Part shown: piece after piece, positions 8,500 through 18,473 of the stretch
How the letters are laid out: each line of letters starts with the position of its first letter
Numbering within the stretch: the stretch's first letter is position 1
NCBI GenBank assembly: GCA_017534425.1
Contig: JAFXWB010000037.1
Span: forward strand, 1-33,765
DNA from: Bacilli bacterium
GTDB lineage: Bacteria; Bacillota_I; Bacilli_A; RFN20; CAG-826
Reading direction: 5' to 3'
Length of the DNA stretch: 33,765 nt
Position numbers and translations under genes: made by a program
The notes under the pieces: model-generated
The model's input: the letters and a program-made list of their open reading frames with translations, nothing else
Told to the model about the DNA's origin: nothing
Databases searched by the model: none

Positions 8500-8520
8500 A
8501 AAGGCTTAAATGCCTTTCTA
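8500..8520. terminator. Terminator between nitroreductase and Fic genes
   Basis: Stem AAAGGC/GCCTTT with a 6-base loop. On the minus strand it is followed by TTTATTTTTG, so it should work well for the Fic gene. The plus-strand tail is weaker. Confidence 0.7.
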
Positions 8521-9486
8521 TTTAATGTTCCAGTAGCCGTATTTTTTACCATTCACTCTTTCGATAATTCCGTTGGCTCCTAAAGAAGCAATAATACTTT
8601 TTGCTGTTCTTAACGAGACACCAAGTTCTGTAGCAATTTCACCAGTTTTTATTTTTGGGTCTGCTTTCATAAGGTCGACAACTTTTTCATCTCGAGACAT
8701 CTTTTTTCTATTTTTTACTAGTGAAATATGAAGTAATCTGTTTTCGAGAACATTACTTTCGCCAAGTAATAGATTTCTTAAAAACTTAACTAAAAATGAT
8801 CTATCTTCATATATACCTTTTGGTATATTAGTATAATTAGCCCTAACTAGTGCATTTCTGAAATACCATGCATTTTTCCTAAATAAATCATTAGAAACAT
8901 CAAAACCTAGAGATCTTAGATATTTAATTAAGAAGACCGCAACAGTTCTCGTGTTGCCTTCTGGAAATACATGAATTTGCCATAAGTTCGCAGTAAAAAT
9001 AGCTAACCTCTCAATAGTTTGATCGATAGATAGTTTTGAATAATTAAACTGTTTTTCTACACTAAAATCATATTGCAATGTTTCCTCTAATTCTCTGTAG
9101 TCACCATAAACGACCGAATCATCTTCAAGAACCCACTCTTTCTTAGAAATGTTATAAGTTCTCGTTTGTCCTGCACGTTTAAACACACCTTCGAAAAGAT
9201 AACGGTGTATTGATAAAAATTGTCCGACTGTAAAAGTGAATGAATCATCTTGAATTAGTTCACCGATTTTTATAGAGACATTATCAGCTTCTAATTCGTT
9301 TTCGTTAATATTAGGTTTATTTTTATAATATTCCTTTATTAATTTCCCGAATTCTTCTAAAGAAATCTCGCCACTTATATATCTTTGAGATTCCTTATTA
9401 AAATATTCAGATGTCTTCAAATGATCTACATCTTGAAGACCAACACCTGTTCCTAACAAATACTCTCTAGTGTATTTATTTTCCAT
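8518..9486 (-). CDS. Fic family protein with C-terminal winged helix
   Basis: 322 residues. The Fic motif HVFPEGNTRTV (residues 172-182) carries the catalytic His, the acidic metal ligand (Glu177) and the GN..R anion-binding loop. The second Arg of the general motif is Ala here, as I recall for this subfamily. SIHRYLFEGVFKRAGQTRTYNISKKEW (in two parts, about 92-118) is the flap region. The last ~55 residues form a winged helix-turn-helix (IKTGEIATELGVSLRTAKSIIASL), suggesting DNA binding. Fic enzymes transfer AMP or related groups to protein hydroxyls. Its promoter (9493-9521) overlaps repeats of AAAGTGCAAT, and the start site falls almost on the ATG with no Shine-Dalgarno site. Autoregulation through the winged helix is inferred. 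No antitoxin partner is adjacent. Confidence 0.88.
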   Translation of the reverse strand: MENKYTREYLLGTGVGLQDVDHLKTSEYFNKESQRYISGEISLEEFGKLIKEYYKNKPNINENELEADNVSIKIGELIQDDSFTFTVGQFLSIHRYLFEGVFKRAGQTRTYNISKKEWVLEDDSVVYGDYRELEETLQYDFSVEKQFNYSKLSIDQTIERLAIFTANLWQIHVFPEGNTRTVAVFLIKYLRSLGFDVSNDLFRKNAWYFRNALVRANYTNIPKGIYEDRSFLVKFLRNLLLGESNVLENRLLHISLVKNRKKMSRDEKVVDLMKADPKIKTGEIATELGVSLRTAKSIIASLGANGIIERVNGKKYGYWNIK

Positions 9487-11218: not shown

Positions 11219-12430
11219 ATGCCAGAACTAAAGTGCCCAAATTGTCAAAAAACATTCGTTATTGATCAAGATGATTATGCTTCGCTTCTTTCGCAAGTTA
11301 GAAACGATGCTTTTGAAAAAGAATTAAGAGATAGACTAGCTCAACAAGAAAAGAACAACAAACAACAAAACGAACTTGATTTACAAAGAGCAAAAGCCGC
11401 GGACGAAAAACAAATTAATGATCTTAAAAATAACATCGAACTCCTTAAACAAAGATTAGACGCTGCTGAAAAGGAAAAACAACTTGCTCTTTCTAATGCT
11501 TTAGCCCAAAAAGAAAAAGACATTTTAAATTTACAAAACGAATTAAAATTATCTGAAAAGAATAAACAGTTAGAAATCAGTCATTTGAATGAAGCACATT
11601 CAAGTGAACTCAAAATGAAAGATGAGCAAATTGCTTTCTACAAAGATTTAAAAGCAAAGATGTCTACAAAACTTGTTGGAGAAACCCTCGAACAACATTG
11701 TATGACTCAATTTAATCAAATTAGAATGACAGCTTTCCCAAAAGCATATTTTGAAAAAGATAATGATGCAAGTAGTGGTTCAAAAGGTGATTTTATTTTC
11801 AAAGAAAATACTGAAGAGAATGCTGAACTTATCTCTATCATGTTTGAAATGAAAAATGAAAATGACACAACTGCTACAAAGAAAAAGAACGAAGATTTCT
11901 TTAAAGAACTTGATAAAGATAGAAACGAAAAACATTGTGAATATGCTGTTTTAGTGTCAATGCTTGAACCAGACAGTGAATATTACAACGCAGGTATTGT
12001 TGATGTCTCTTATAGATATCCAAAAATGTATGTTATTAGACCTCAATGCTTTATTCCTTTTATCACGCTTGTTAGAAATGCAGCACTAGCATCTGCACAA
12101 TATAAAAACCAATTAGTGCTCATTAAGAACCAAAGCGTTGATGTTTCTAATTTTGAAAATGATTTAAACCAATTTAAAGAAAAGTTTGCCTACAACTATA
12201 ATCTCGCGAATGATAAGTTTAATAAAGCGATTGAAGAAATTGATAAAACAATTGAGCACCTTAATAAAGTTAAAGATGGCTTAATTGGTGCTGATCGTAA
12301 CTTAAGATTAGCAAACGATAAAGCTCAAGATCTTACTGTTAAAAAACTTACTCGTAACAATCCTACAATGAAGAAAATGTTCGAAGAGGCAAAGACAGTA
12401 AAAGAAACTGATGTAAAAGATGCTGAATAA
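11219..12430 (+). CDS. DUF2130 domain protein
   Basis: 403 residues from the ATG at 11219, which is preceded by AAAAGGAG at a normal distance. An upstream ATG at 11192 is less likely. The N-terminus [12 protein letters not shown] is a CxxC zinc-ribbon-like segment with only one Cys pair visible. Residues about 30-145 are a long Lys/Glu/Gln-rich coiled coil. The C-terminal half is the DUF2130 core, with [27 protein letters not shown] and [15 protein letters not shown]. The core's D..FE.K pattern recalls restriction-endonuclease-like folds, but catalysis is unproven and no function is firmly known. It is probably cytoplasmic. It ends in a strong terminator shared with the convergent channel gene. 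Confidence 0.85.
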
Positions 12431-12472: not shown

Positions 12473-14335
12473 TTATTCTTCTTCAGACATGTATTTAAGG
12501 TAAATAAATGAGTCTTCAGGACGAACAACAATTTCTTGTTTCTCGTCCTGGTTTTCATCAAGCAACTTAATTTGGTTATCTTGAATTAAACCAATTAAGA
12601 TTCGTTTACCTTCAAAAGTATTATAGAAGGTTCTTAATAATTCTGCTTTTGATTCAAATTTTAGCTCTTCATTTATAACAACAGTTCTGCATGCCTTGTG
12701 AATGATTAAATCAAAGTCGCTAGCTCTATGAGAAGTGGAAATAGTTAATATTTTTTCAAAGAAACGTTTTGATTTTTTATTTAAGGCTAATTGAGTAATT
12801 AATAATGACATCATCTTATTAGAAATAATTGTGTTTTGGATATTGAAGTCTTTAACGCTTGAAAGGTTTCTAGAATCAAGAAGTTCTGTAGTGTATGAGA
12901 TATCTTCAGAATTAACCGGGAAGACCTTAGAGAGTTCTATTAAGGCAACAAAGACATTCGCATCATAACTATCAGATGCAACTTTGTCATCAGATAAGAT
13001 AAGTATTTTCTTTAAACCTTCTGTTACTTTAACATCTTCAATTAATTCTTTAGTTTGGCATTTATCATAATGTTTAAATTTGAAAGAAATATCAGATGAT
13101 TTTTGCATTCTTTCTAATGAATTAAGGAGAAATTTGGCTTTAGAGTTATCTCCAATGATAAATATTGAAATCTGAGCAGAACCATGCTCAATGTTAATTT
13201 CTAATGTACGTGAAGTCGTGTATTCTTCAGGACGCTTGTTATTTAGTTTTTCTTCTCCTGCTGCTAAAACGAAAAGATTTTTGTCTTCTTTATAAACAGG
13301 AATAGTCTCGTTATGAGTTTTTAAGTATTCATCAATCTCTTCATTAGATTCAATTGAGTAGAATTCTGAACCTTCAAAGGAGAACAGTTCAGAATATAGA
13401 TTACTCATATGAGGCATTACAAGTGATTGGGCGATGATTTGACCAATCTTTTTATTAAAGGATATTGGAGTAATACTAAGTTTCTTAAGAGAAGTGATTT
13501 TATGTGACAACCCTTCTATTTGAGCTCTAGTTTCATCCGATTGAGTTTCTACAACTATTTGACATCCATCTTTTAATTTAAAAGAACCAAGTTTTAAGAC
13601 AATCTTAAGATTGAGAAGATCAGAGTTAATGATATTGTCATCATCAACATCAATCATATCTTCTCTAGCCATAATACAAATTTGAGAAGCTTCTTCTATT
13701 GAAATATCTTCTAGATTTCCTCTAAGTAATGAATCTCCCTCTTTAATAATGAGATTAGCTTTAATCTTTTCGTGAACTTCGTTTGTTAAGAATAATGATT
13801 TAAGCTCTGCTTCAATATAGTCTTTATTTCTATCTGAAAGAATAACAATGTTCTTTTTAAAGCCTTTAAGCATTAAGTTATAAATCATTTCAGGAACTTT
13901 TGAGTTCCAGTTAAGAATAACAAAATGATTGTTAACAATGATCTTTCCTTTTGCTTTTGACTTCTTATCAATGAAGGTTCTTAAAGCGGTGGTGACAGTC
14001 GCTATAATGGCGCCAGAGAATAAAATCATACCCAGAATAACAATGATAATTGCAAGAACCATCATCATTCTGTTATCGCCAACATTTAACAATGTTAACG
14101 AGTTAGGAGAAATCATCCATCTAGCGTTAGTAATAAACGCAGACAAAAATGATTTTTGGAAGAATTCATAATCGTAATAAACTCCGTCAAGCACTAACGC
14201 TAAAACAGAGCCAATACATAAGAGTGCAACATTAATTAATAAAAGAGTTACTAAAGTAACTGCTAATGGTCTTTGATAGGTTCTAAGTGTCTTTTTCGCT
14301 TTAAGTTTTAAAAAGAATGATTTTATTTTTTTCAT
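12473..14335 (-). CDS. CASTOR/POLLUX-like ion channel with RCK domains
   Basis: 620 residues. Two hydrophobic segments (about residues 24-50 and 90-117) flank a loop with a possible pore helix (FITNARWMISPNSLTLL, about 67-83). The long cytoplasmic part begins with NHFVILNWNSKVPEMIYNL (about 135-153), the first Rossmann strand of an RCK-like domain as in CASTOR/POLLUX channels. A second Rossmann-like unit starts at ISIFIIGDNSKAKFLLNSL (about 386). Plant relatives are cation channels of the nuclear envelope. Bacterial homologues exist but their ion and ligand are poorly known. AGGTAGG lies upstream of the ATG. No partner subunit is adjacent. An alternative label is TrkA-N/RCK domain protein. 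Two transmembrane segments per subunit fit a tetrameric channel. Confidence 0.7.
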   Translation of the reverse strand: MKKIKSFFLKLKAKKTLRTYQRPLAVTLVTLLLINVALLCIGSVLALVLDGVYYDYEFFQKSFLSAFITNARWMISPNSLTLLNVGDNRMMMVLAIIIVILGMILFSGAIIATVTTALRTFIDKKSKAKGKIIVNNHFVILNWNSKVPEMIYNLMLKGFKKNIVILSDRNKDYIEAELKSLFLTNEVHEKIKANLIIKEGDSLLRGNLEDISIEEASQICIMAREDMIDVDDDNIINSDLLNLKIVLKLGSFKLKDGCQIVVETQSDETRAQIEGLSHKITSLKKLSITPISFNKKIGQIIAQSLVMPHMSNLYSELFSFEGSEFYSIESNEEIDEYLKTHNETIPVYKEDKNLFVLAAGEEKLNNKRPEEYTTSRTLEINIEHGSAQISIFIIGDNSKAKFLLNSLERMQKSSDISFKFKHYDKCQTKELIEDVKVTEGLKKILILSDDKVASDSYDANVFVALIELSKVFPVNSEDISYTTELLDSRNLSSVKDFNIQNTIISNKMMSLLITQLALNKKSKRFFEKILTISTSHRASDFDLIIHKACRTVVINEELKFESKAELLRTFYNTFEGKRILIGLIQDNQIKLLDENQDEKQEIVVRPEDSFIYLKYMSEEE

Positions 14336-14431: not shown

Positions 14432-14460
14432 TTGACATTAGCAATTTCAATATGTATATT
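14432..14460 (+). promoter_or_regulatory. Near-consensus sigma-A promoter of an orphan small RNA
   Basis: TTGACA (14432-14437), a 17-base spacer and TATATT (14455-14460). The -35 box is perfect and the -10 box has one mismatch. The predicted start is at 14466-14467. No coding gene follows before the terminator at 14498. Confidence 0.75.
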
Positions 14461-14466
14461 AAAAAA

Positions 14467-14518
14467 GTCATGTAAGAGCTTAGTGCTCAGACAATTGCCC
14501 TTGATAAAAGGGTTTTTT
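14467..14518 (+). ncRNA. Candidate 52-nt small RNA
   Basis: From the predicted start there are two hairpins: GAGC-TTAGT-GCTC (14476-14488) and CCCTT-GATAA-AAGGG (14498-14512), the second followed by six T (14513-14518), a textbook terminator. The stretch between start and terminator contains only a start-stop pair (ATG TAA at 14470-14475), so it does not encode a protein. The downstream antitoxin has its own promoter, so this is not obviously its leader. No known RNA family was recognised. Targets could be in trans. Confidence 0.5.
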
Positions 14519-14582
14519 GTTTATTTAAAATCATTCCATACTAAAGAAAATATTTTTAATTTAATGAATATAATACTAAATA

Positions 14583-14645: not shown

Positions 14646-14912
14646 ATGACAATTATGGCATCTGCAGATATTCGACTTAAATATAATGATGTAGTTGAAA
14701 AGTGTAAAGAAAGCGGCGAGCCAATTTATCTTACAAAAAATGGCCAAGGTGAACTTGTTGTTATGGATATTGAATCTTTTGAGAAAAGAGAACAAGAACT
14801 TCGCGCTCAGCAACTTGTTTTAGAATCCTATGCAGCTCGTTTAGCTGGTGGAAAAGAATATTCCCTTGAAGAATCTAAGAATCTTATTTTAAAGATGATT
14901 GAGAGCAAATAA
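14646..14912 (+). CDS. Phd/YefM family antitoxin
   Basis: 88 residues from the ATG at 14646, chosen because GGAGG lies 7 bases upstream. A longer reading from 14583 has no such site. The N-terminal IMASADIRLKYNDVVEKCKE and PIYLTKNGQGELVVMDIESF match the Phd/YefM DNA-binding domain (the YLTKNG..ELVVM strand is characteristic). The C-terminal ~30 residues are charged and helical, as expected for the toxin-neutralising tail. It normally binds and blocks its partner toxin and represses its own operon. The partner starts one base after its stop codon. A palindrome over the -10 box is a likely operator. Confidence 0.88.
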   Translation: MTIMASADIRLKYNDVVEKCKESGEPIYLTKNGQGELVVMDIESFEKREQELRAQQLVLESYAARLAGGKEYSLEESKNLILKMIESK

Positions 14913-14913
14913 A

Positions 14914-15222
14914 ATGGGACTTTTTAAAGTTGAAATTGAAGAAACCGCTCACCAAGATATCGCTACATGCGTTGCTTTTGTTTTGAACGTATCAAAAGAA
15001 GCGGCAATTAAATTGGTGAATGAAATATATGATCAAATTCATTCTCTTGAGAGTTACCCAGAACGCAATCCATTATTTGAAATGCAAAAGACATTTCCAC
15101 ATTTATTAAGAAAACAAATTATTAATAAAAGATATCTTGCGATTTATTCAATTGAAGGGAATTTGGTTAAAGTTTATCGATTCCTTGATTCGAGACGAAA
15201 TTTTGAATCATTGTTAAAATAA
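14914..15222 (+). CDS. ParE/RelE family toxin
   Basis: 102 residues from the ATG at 14914, one base after the antitoxin stop, so probably translated by coupling. The fold signature is ParE/RelE-like: FKVEIEETAHQDI at the start, a pair of helices (AAIKLVNEIYDQIHSLESYPERNP), then KRYLAIYSIEGNLVKVYRFLDSRR with the final strand and basic residues. RelE members cut ribosome-bound mRNA and ParE members block gyrase. The YR.LDSRR ending occurs in both groups, so the target is open. It is paired with a Phd/YefM-type antitoxin, a common mix. A strong terminator closes the operon after 20 bases. Confidence 0.85.
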   Translation: MGLFKVEIEETAHQDIATCVAFVLNVSKEAAIKLVNEIYDQIHSLESYPERNPLFEMQKTFPHLLRKQIINKRYLAIYSIEGNLVKVYRFLDSRRNFESLLK

Positions 15223-16427: not shown

Positions 16428-18473
16428 ATGAAAACTGAAAACATTCGTAATGTCGTTATCCTTGGTCACCAAAGTAGTGGTAAGACCAGTTTAGTCGAAT
16501 CCTTAGCATACGTTGCTAAACTTATTCCAGCAAAGGGCGAAGTCGAAAAGAAAAATACATTATCAGACTATACTCCAGCCGAACAACTTAGAGGCGGCTC
16601 AATTCAAACTGCAGTAGTTCCATTAAACTATAATGATCATAGGATCAACATTGTTGATATTCCTGGTAATGATGACTTTATTTCTGAAGTTATCGGAGTT
16701 ACAGGTGTTGTTAAAGGCGCGGTCTTGGTCATCGATGCTTCAGTTGGTGTTCAAGTTGGTACAGTCAAACATTTCAATCAACTTAAGAAAAGAGGCGTTC
16801 CCACATTTGTCTTTGTTAATAAGATGGATAAAGAAGAAGCTAATTTTGAAGAAACACTTGAAGAAATCCGCGAAAAACTTGGTAAAAACGTTGTTTCATT
16901 CTGCTATCCACTTGGTCATGAAAAATCATTTGACGGCTTTGCAAACGCAGTAGATCTTAAGGCTCACATCTTCAACGGAAAAGAATGCGTTGAAGCAGAA
17001 ATCTATCCAGATAAGAGAGACAAAGTACTTGAATTACATAATACAATCGTTGAAGAAGTCGCAAAGACTAGTGATGAATTATTAGAAAAATTCTTTAATG
17101 GCGAAGAATTTACACTTGAAGAAATCCGCTCAGCACTTAGAGTTGGTGTTTTAAATGGTGAAATTTGCCCATTAATCGTTGGCAGTGCAACAAAGAACAT
17201 CGGTGTTCAAACACTCCTTAACATGTTCATTTCTTACCTTCCAAATCCAAACGACCTCAAACCTCTTGAAGCACAAGATGAAAATGGAAAAGATAAAGTC
17301 GTTCCAACAGATGTCAATCAACCATTCTCAGCATATGTCTTTAAGACAATCGTTGATCCATATGCAGGTCAAATTAACTTATTCAAAGTTTGTTCTGGTG
17401 TTTTACATAATGGTGATGAAGTCTACGTTAATGGTGAAACCCAAAGAATTTCAATGCTTTACCAAATGACAGGTAAAAAGCTTGATTCAGTTAATGAAAT
17501 TATTGCTGGTGATATTGGTGCAGTCACAAGACTTGAAGGTGTCGCATCAGGCGATTCTCTTTCAAGCCCAAGATCAGTCACGATCTTTAAGAAAGTTAAA
17601 TATCCAACCGCAGTTATTTATAAAGGTATCGTTTTAGCAAATAAGAATGATGAATCAAAACTTGGACCAGCTCTTGCTAAGATGCAACTTGAAGATCCAT
17701 CATTAGATGTCAAACGTAATAATGAAACAAAACAATTATTACTTGGTGGTCTTTCTGATTCACATATTAACTTTGCAATTGATAAATTAAAAACAATTTA
17801 TAAGATTTCAGTTAGCACAGAAAAGATGAAAATCATTTACCGTGAATCCATTAAAGGAACAGCAGAAGGTGATGGTCGTTACGTCAAACAATCTGGTGGT
17901 TCTGGATTCTATGGTGTTGTTAAGATGAGATTTGAACCTGCTGAAGAAAACGAATTTGCAGAAGAAGTCTTCGGTGGTGCAGTTCCAAAGAACTACTTCC
18001 CAGCAGTTGAAAAAGGATTCTTCGAAGCACTTCAACAGGGCTTATTAGCAGGATTCCCTGTTATCGGTGTTAAAGGCGTCTTAATTGATGGTAAATATCA
18101 CCCAGTTGATTCAAATGAACAAGCATTTAAGATGGCTGGTATCTTAGCATTTAAAGATGCATATATGAAATGCAAACCAATTATTCTCGAACCATTTATG
18201 AGAATTAGAGTTAACATTGAATCCAAGTATACAGGTAACGTTCTTTCTGATCTCAATACCAGAAGAGCAAGAATTCAAAACATCGAAGAAAAAGATGGTG
18301 GTTATCAAGAAATTGAAGCCCTTGTACCAGAAGCCGAAATTATTGACTACGTTACACAACTTAAGTCATTAACTCAAGCATCCGGTTTCTTCAATCGTGA
18401 ATTCACCGGTTATGAAGAATTACCAAGCTATCTTGTAGACAAAGTTATCGCTGATAATAAAGTCGATAAATAA
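16428..18473 (+). CDS. Elongation factor G-like GTPase
   Basis: 681 residues, spanning EF-G domains I-V, close to the ~690 of true EF-G. The P-loop is GHQSSGKT (13-20) and the G4 motif is NKMD (131-134). The G3 motif is DIPGND (77-82), where EF-G has DTPGHV. The catalytic His is therefore Asn81 (codon AAT, 16668-16670). These traits match the EF-G-like paralogue family rather than FusA itself. The C-terminal domains IV/V are complete (GGYQEIEALVPEAEI, then SLTQASGFFNREF). It presumably binds GTP and the ribosome, but a translocase role is uncertain. The start follows GGGAGAAA by 12 bases. It sits downstream of the variant Fic gene, and a terminator closes the pair. Confidence 0.85.
   Translation: MKTENIRNVVILGHQSSGKTSLVESLAYVAKLIPAKGEVEKKNTLSDYTPAEQLRGGSIQTAVVPLNYNDHRINIVDIPGNDDFISEVIGVTGVVKGAVLVIDASVGVQVGTVKHFNQLKKRGVPTFVFVNKMDKEEANFEETLEEIREKLGKNVVSFCYPLGHEKSFDGFANAVDLKAHIFNGKECVEAEIYPDKRDKVLELHNTIVEEVAKTSDELLEKFFNGEEFTLEEIRSALRVGVLNGEICPLIVGSATKNIGVQTLLNMFISYLPNPNDLKPLEAQDENGKDKVVPTDVNQPFSAYVFKTIVDPYAGQINLFKVCSGVLHNGDEVYVNGETQRISMLYQMTGKKLDSVNEIIAGDIGAVTRLEGVASGDSLSSPRSVTIFKKVKYPTAVIYKGIVLANKNDESKLGPALAKMQLEDPSLDVKRNNETKQLLLGGLSDSHINFAIDKLKTIYKISVSTEKMKIIYRESIKGTAEGDGRYVKQSGGSGFYGVVKMRFEPAEENEFAEEVFGGAVPKNYFPAVEKGFFEALQQGLLAGFPVIGVKGVLIDGKYHPVDSNEQAFKMAGILAFKDAYMKCKPIILEPFMRIRVNIESKYTGNVLSDLNTRRARIQNIEEKDGGYQEIEALVPEAEIIDYVTQLKSLTQASGFFNREFTGYEELPSYLVDKVIADNKVDK

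Follow-up and report, generated by a model that had tools for sequence, protein, structure and literature searches.

The window, positions 1 to 33,765 of contig JAFXWB010000037.1 of a Bacilli bacterium, carries a small RNA that is probably (with a likelihood of roughly 60%) an RNA antitoxin partnering small MazF-fold toxins, a family from gut and rumen Bacilli, and present here as a solitary copy. The known RNA antitoxins that act on proteins form a few families, all of them RNA-then-toxin operons. If our reading is correct, the RNA-antitoxin strategy has also arisen in another layout, with opposite orientation, independent promoters and arrays. A protein family so far without annotation would receive a name, and several natural RNA-toxin specificities would become available for comparison. 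With the solitary copy in the window, RNA-only immunity can be put to a direct test.

A small RNA gene with a promoter and a terminator of its own

The RNA (GUCAUGUAAGAGCUUAGUGCUCAGACAAUUGCCCUUGAUAAAAGGGUUUUUUG; DNA GTCATGTAAGAGCTTAGTGCTCAGACAATTGCCCTTGATAAAAGGGTTTTTTG, 14467-14519) begins 35 nt downstream of the first base of the -35 hexamer, its 5' end at 14467 being placed by the promoter spacing and the conserved GUCAYG. The first-pass annotation had described a TTGACA-17-TATATT promoter (14432-14460), a GAGC/GCTC hairpin and a terminator hairpin with six T, and all of these were confirmed at the positions in Table 1. The promoter matches 11 of the 12 consensus bases and is the best promoter-like site between positions 12000 and 17000. 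Promoter-like sites in general are found at background frequency in the window, which is AT-rich (21 vs. 22.9 expected from shuffles). We then searched for the full combination, defined as two hexamers with at most one mismatch each followed by a stable hairpin run ending in TTTTT: it occurs once in the window, against three matches in 60 Markov replicas (~0.05 per window). The predicted fold of the RNA (-15.8 kcal/mol, z -2.7) is more stable than those of shuffled sequences.

Table 1. Positions of the RNA gene, its elements and the adjacent toxin-antitoxin genes in the window
Feature	Position	Strand	Basis or remark
-35 hexamer TTGACA	14432-14437	+	Sequence; place kept among candidate copies
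-10 hexamer TATATT	14455-14460	+	17-nt spacer after TTGACA
Small RNA, about 52 nt	14467-14519	+	Covariance model match and homologue alignments
Outer stem, GUC (14467-14469) with GAC (14490-14492)	14467-14492	+	Pairing across homologues
5' internal-loop segment AUGUAA	14470-14475	+	Alignments; fits the (C/U)A(C/U)GYRG-like motif at the same place in the RNA classes
Inner hairpin GAGC-UUAGU-GCUC	14476-14488	+	Covariation over 13 homologues
Single-stranded linker AAUUG	14493-14497	+	Invariant in homologue alignment
Second hairpin CCCUU-GAUAA-AAGGG with U-run	14498-14518	+	Terminator here; hairpin 14498-14512, TTTTTT 14513-14518
PhdYefM-type antitoxin gene	14646-14912	+	Pfam PF02604; not in the module of relatives
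ParE-type toxin gene	14914-15222	+	Pfam PF05016; not in the module of relatives

As had been annotated, no coding gene is apparent: we found no plausible ORF inside the RNA, the ATG TAA at its start yields none, and the AUG is not conserved. Neither the RNA nor its homologues matched Rfam above the gathering score. Weak matches of the RNA to MCS4 and SpF51 lay far below the cut-off and were rejected, and the only Rfam matches elsewhere in the loci were to tRNA, SRP and c-di-GMP-I. The RNA is present as a single copy in its 1.34 Mb genome and no tandem copies were found around it.

Several other genes of the window were recorded. A 620-aa membrane protein without Pfam match (12473-14335, - strand) shares 72% identity with a protein found in just one relative (G015) and has distant paralogues in few genomes; judging from its sequence, it looks like an RCK/CASTOR-type ion channel. 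A gene for a Fic/DOC protein (PF02661; 15372-16409, + strand) adjoins that of an EF-G-like GTPase (16428-18473), and the product of 8518-9486 (- strand) has a Fic-like appearance with an HVFPEGNTR motif.

Conservation and covariation in relatives

Conservation of the RNA was looked for in relatives and homologues were found. A DNA search of 59 relatives returned two copies from the same genus, located in unrelated places. The pattern GACAATTGCCCT-N(3-10)-AGGG was found in 10 of the 279 genomes of the order versus one for the reversed control, and one of these 10 matches (L050) is a chance match inside a GC-rich gene. Two loci whose resemblance was limited to the terminator (L010 and L020) were dropped. 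A covariance model built from eight copies matched 11 of the 279 genomes with one copy each (E 1e-5 to 1e-16) and matched the window at 14467-14512 with 62.5 bits; a variant form of the RNA was found in two more genomes (G092 and G093). No DNA or protein relative was found in plasmids, phages or viral contigs. The 14 window-type pattern matches in viral contigs are without terminator U-run, score at most 20 bits and were regarded as chance.

Identity among 15 candidate copies amounts to 78% in the promoter hexamers and 29% in the spacers, and the RNA starts 35 nt from the -35 in 11 copies and 36 nt in two. The three helices are paired in 97.6% of cells across 13 homologues, and in 7 of the 13 base pairs both partners vary. 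The covariation score was 0.528, relative to 0.168 for shuffles and at most 0.1 when the partners were slid, in an alignment some rows of which were N-padded by hand and which is therefore biased towards structure. The outer stem pairs in all 13 homologues (middle pair UA in 10, GC in one and GU in two) and changes from GUC/GAC to GGC/GCC in G092. The inner hairpin shows both-side changes in four of five pairs, with 94% of cells paired, and the second hairpin covaries in two pairs (UA/CG and UA/AU). This second hairpin had been annotated as a terminator, and it serves as such in the window. The CCCU..AGGG hairpin is nevertheless retained where a homologue possesses another, distinct hairpin as terminator, which indicates that it has a role beyond termination.

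The hexamers are kept at a fixed distance across a random spacer and all three helices present compensatory changes. These sequence comparisons therefore indicate that the window RNA is a genuine conserved structured sRNA gene, independently promoted and terminated, in support of the first-pass description of an intergenic small-RNA gene. The conservation of the hexamers relative to the spacers and the covarying helices remove the doubt that it might have arisen by chance.

A convergent gene for a protein with a predicted MazF fold

In most homologous loci, the window-type RNA is convergent with, and lies just downstream of, the stop of a gene encoding a small basic protein (105-150 aa). The distance from RNA to stop is usually 1-110 nt, both in relatives with this RNA class and in sister classes. 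The RNA had been called an orphan; this is true of the window genome but not of most relatives, where it is partnered by this convergent gene. The partner protein has no match above noise in Pfam, NCBIfam or PHROG. When 14 members of the family were compared with Pfam up to E 10, a single noise match was obtained and none to PF13958 or PF02452. A PADLOC match to Cas8b (E 9e-5) was weak, found for one of six sequences only, and was discarded.

A scan of genome contigs identified 14 toxin loci in rumen or gut MAGs of Bacilli or Erysipelotrichaceae, and all 14 carry an RNA unit behind the stop, as judged by eye. Considering 41 toxin genes, an opposite-strand hairpin RNA unit was detected within 330 nt of the stop for 35 of them, versus 13 of 158 other genes of the same loci, and no same-strand unit was found near these toxin genes. 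When a -35 with at most two mismatches was imposed, the association was 23 of 41 versus 2 of 158. The toxin family is present in 10 of the 11 genomes with window-type RNA versus 44 of the 279 genomes overall, counts that are not independent because the genus g49 contributes many of both. At 38 toxin loci, the commonest neighbouring family was found eight times, so that no protein neighbour is constant; neither an adjacent protein antitoxin gene nor a recombinase gene was constantly present beside the toxin.

The AlphaFold model of the partner protein (pLDDT 85.5) is a beta-barrel of the MazF type and not that of a small hydrophobic toxin. The top Foldseek matches were all to MazF, Kid and related toxins (probability 1.0, E about 3e-3), and in VIA comparisons MazF scored Z 7.7 and the type III toxin CptN Z 6.8. 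According to this model, the partner has the MazF/CptN fold; since Z is below 8 and the Foldseek E is only about 3e-3, the comparison extends to the fold and no further. Seven residues are invariant in the family (Y16, H26, P27, N38, Y40, R78 and G82). By sequence position, H26-P27 appears at what we take to be the place of the catalytic Arg-Pro of MazF, and a Thr/Ser follows where we assume the catalytic Thr of MazF to lie. The partner toxin is likely an endoribonuclease.

RNA classes, arrays and pairing with toxin subfamilies

Toxin homologues without a window-type RNA have another short RNA behind the stop codon. We distinguished class A (ACCGGUACGCG-inner hairpin-AUCGG), class B (GUGAUUCGCACGUAG-AGAUC..GGUC-UUGUGAAUCAU) and class F (AACCUGUCACGCA-GAGC..GCUC-A-GACAGGUU), and further classes are also present at toxin stops. 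The classes are alike in architecture and not in sequence, their common plan being an outer stem, a YAYGYRG-like loop, an inner hairpin, the second side of the outer stem and a U-run. Several loci present arrays of two to four units, whereas the window has a single one.

The RNA class was shared with that of the closest toxin for 15 of 20 non-redundant toxins (5000 shuffles: mean 4.8, maximum 14). Window-type RNAs accompany toxins without a long ESDK...KRHLT loop, and class A mostly accompanies toxins that possess it. Such agreement between RNA class and toxin subfamily would also follow if neighbours are simply inherited together, but it shows that RNA and toxin travel as a pair.

Additional observations were made on these RNAs. 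Class A arrays (ACCGGTACGYRG...ATCGG; e.g., L154, L149, L123 and L132) have their own -35 and -10 for each unit and are found in 21 of the 279 genomes of the order, often near HTH-type or possible defence genes. Class A units occur without toxin in 7 of these 21 genomes. Many class A promoters (L092, L121, L122, L128 and L095) contain a palindrome between the -35 and the -10, and these palindromes differ in sequence (CAACNNNAGTTG, AACTAG..CTAGTT and ATAGCATATGCTAT), suggesting cognate repressors; XRE-like genes are often divergent to such promoters. Another RNA type is found three times with promoters (AGAAGAGTAGAGCCTCGCAGACACTTAGTTGGTGCTAGTCGTCAAGGGCTCTTTT) beside small genes at L061 (6253-7318, same record as L102). 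Finally, one contig (G009:C61) carries two toxin copies (L077 and L078) with a distinct tandem RNA class (GATGATACG...GGATCATC).

Solitary copies and the genome of the window

Window-type RNA is found without an adjoining toxin in four genomes: G015, G216, G228 and that of the window. The toxins of G015 and G216 belong to subfamilies that go with other RNA classes. The window genome, a draft that is 98% complete, yielded nothing when searched with the toxin alignment or for PemK, an absence that is not certain because these genomes are draft MAGs. Since neither a cognate toxin nor PemK was found, we consider the window RNA to be a solitary antitoxin, which may be a relic left after the loss of the toxin or may have been kept as an immunity RNA against incoming copies. 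In one contig (G011:C11; L107 and L183), three class A RNAs have stayed intact next to a toxin gene that carries a frameshift and of which relatives have intact copies, as expected if toxins decay before antitoxins.

The window genome also encodes a canonical ToxN (L188, G000:C35:22875-23414 and upstream; PF13958, 124.7 bits), preceded by a promoter, a single candidate ToxI-like RNA (GGCCTCCATTAGCCATAGGGAAACC...) and a terminator, with tRNA genes beside it. This ToxN was rejected as the partner of the window RNA: an RNA of its own lies upstream of it, and the T-rich tail is all that this RNA has in common with that of the window.

Proposed mechanism and alternative explanations

Under the proposed mechanism, the toxin would be a MazF-fold endoribonuclease, and the RNA would adopt a fold in which a YAYGYRG-like internal loop separates the outer stem from an inner hairpin. 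By analogy with ToxI and CptI, it would bind the toxin protein and block it, and the separate strong promoters, often in tandem arrays, would maintain the RNA in excess.

It is also conceivable, although unlikely, that the RNA is a general trans-acting sRNA or a protein sponge that is unrelated to toxin control and merely rides the same mobile cassettes. Such a role would account for the class A genomes without toxin and for the solitary window-type copies in unrelated places, and the palindromes in the promoter spacers of some units suggest regulated expression. It would not explain why the great majority of the toxin genes (35/41) are accompanied by a unit whose position and orientation are fixed, nor why the RNA class tracks the toxin subfamily.

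Slightly less probable is a type I-like antisense RNA that silences the toxin mRNA by pairing in the overlapping 3' region, as RatA does for txpA and SR4 for bsrG. Many published type I pairs are convergent, and the layout observed here is strictly convergent with 3' ends that are close or overlapping. However, duplex energies outside the 3' overlap indicated that the RNA does not pair clearly better with its own toxin mRNA than with others in five of seven cases. Antisense pairing would need neither the conserved internal loop nor the covarying helices, the RNA also occurs where no toxin gene adjoins it, and the protein is predicted to be soluble and MazF-like, unlike the small hydrophobic peptides of such pairs. 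Because the structure is conserved, solitary copies exist and the cognate mRNA is not consistently preferred, we favour protein binding over antisense pairing. A base-pairing regulator with mRNA targets, as envisaged in the first-pass annotation, is not the best explanation.

We regard it as very improbable that the RNA is a leader or attenuator of the YefM-ParE operon or an additional RNA serving the canonical ToxN system encoded elsewhere in this genome. It does end 127 nt upstream of the YefM-type antitoxin gene on the same strand, and a ToxN is present. Yet none of the homologous loci examined adjoins YefM-ParE and the RNA has its own terminator, while the ToxN operon is already equipped with an RNA of another sequence. 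The least credible alternative is a DNA element, i.e., a folded site with promoter-like flanks at which gene cassettes recombine or transpose: hairpins do recur in arrays between small same-orientation genes, but the constant 35-nt distance from a canonical -35, the conserved -10, the random spacer and the terminal U-runs are features of transcription, the classes share architecture and not sequence, and no recombinase gene is constant beside them.

Comparison with known systems

Solitary ToxI mimics have been described in phage PhiTE (PMC3475682, PMC12548467). Like the window RNA, they are RNA antitoxin units without toxin; however, these copies are viral, whereas the viral matches to the window-type RNA are due to chance. 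The convergent type I systems (txpA/RatA, bsrG/SR4 and clostridial pairs) have the same tail-to-tail orientation but rely on small hydrophobic peptide toxins and on antisense pairing, for which the duplex energies gave no consistent support here. MazEF and PemIK of type II share the toxin fold, but there a protein antitoxin is produced from a gene adjoining that of the toxin, and none is constant here; in addition, the toxin sequence falls outside Pfam PF02452. In the AbiF/RCd22 system of Clostridioides difficile (PMC12373285), a ncRNA with a sigma-A promoter and a terminator binds and inhibits a toxic protein, as we propose for the present RNA. RCd22 is located upstream of abiF and co-transcribed with it (PMC12373285), and AbiF belongs to the Abi_2/AbiD/F family and is not a MazF-fold protein.

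The closest likeness is to type III systems (ToxIN, CptIN and TenpIN; PMC5086642), whose toxins share their fold with MazF and Kid (PMC5086642). In both cases, a structured small RNA accompanies a MazF/Kid-fold protein without any protein antitoxin. As for the tandem RNA repeats of type III, several of the present loci carry arrays of up to four units and the window a single one. Known type III systems are single operons in which one promoter is followed by the RNA, a terminator and then the toxin (PMC5086642). In contrast, the RNA described here is convergent with the toxin and downstream of it, with its own promoter and often as several separately promoted units, and the toxin matches no ToxN Pfam model (PF13958). 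Type III RNAs are pseudoknotted and bind and inhibit their toxin; for the present RNA the helices analysed are nested, and nested hairpins are predicted. We predict that this RNA-toxin system works like type III, but we do not assign it to type III because neither its operon layout nor the sequence family of its toxin is that of these systems. In the literature on protein-binding RNA antitoxins we found only layouts with the RNA upstream in an operon; most subscription papers were outside this search, so that an earlier description is possible. We tentatively suggest, with less confidence than for the antitoxin role itself, that these loci might represent a type of toxin-antitoxin system not described before. 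In it, short hairpin RNAs with separate promoters, encoded tail-to-tail with a MazF-fold endoribonuclease, would restrain this enzyme; the units of their arrays would diversify along with the toxin subfamilies, and solitary copies such as that of the window would serve as genome-encoded immunity to toxin cassettes.
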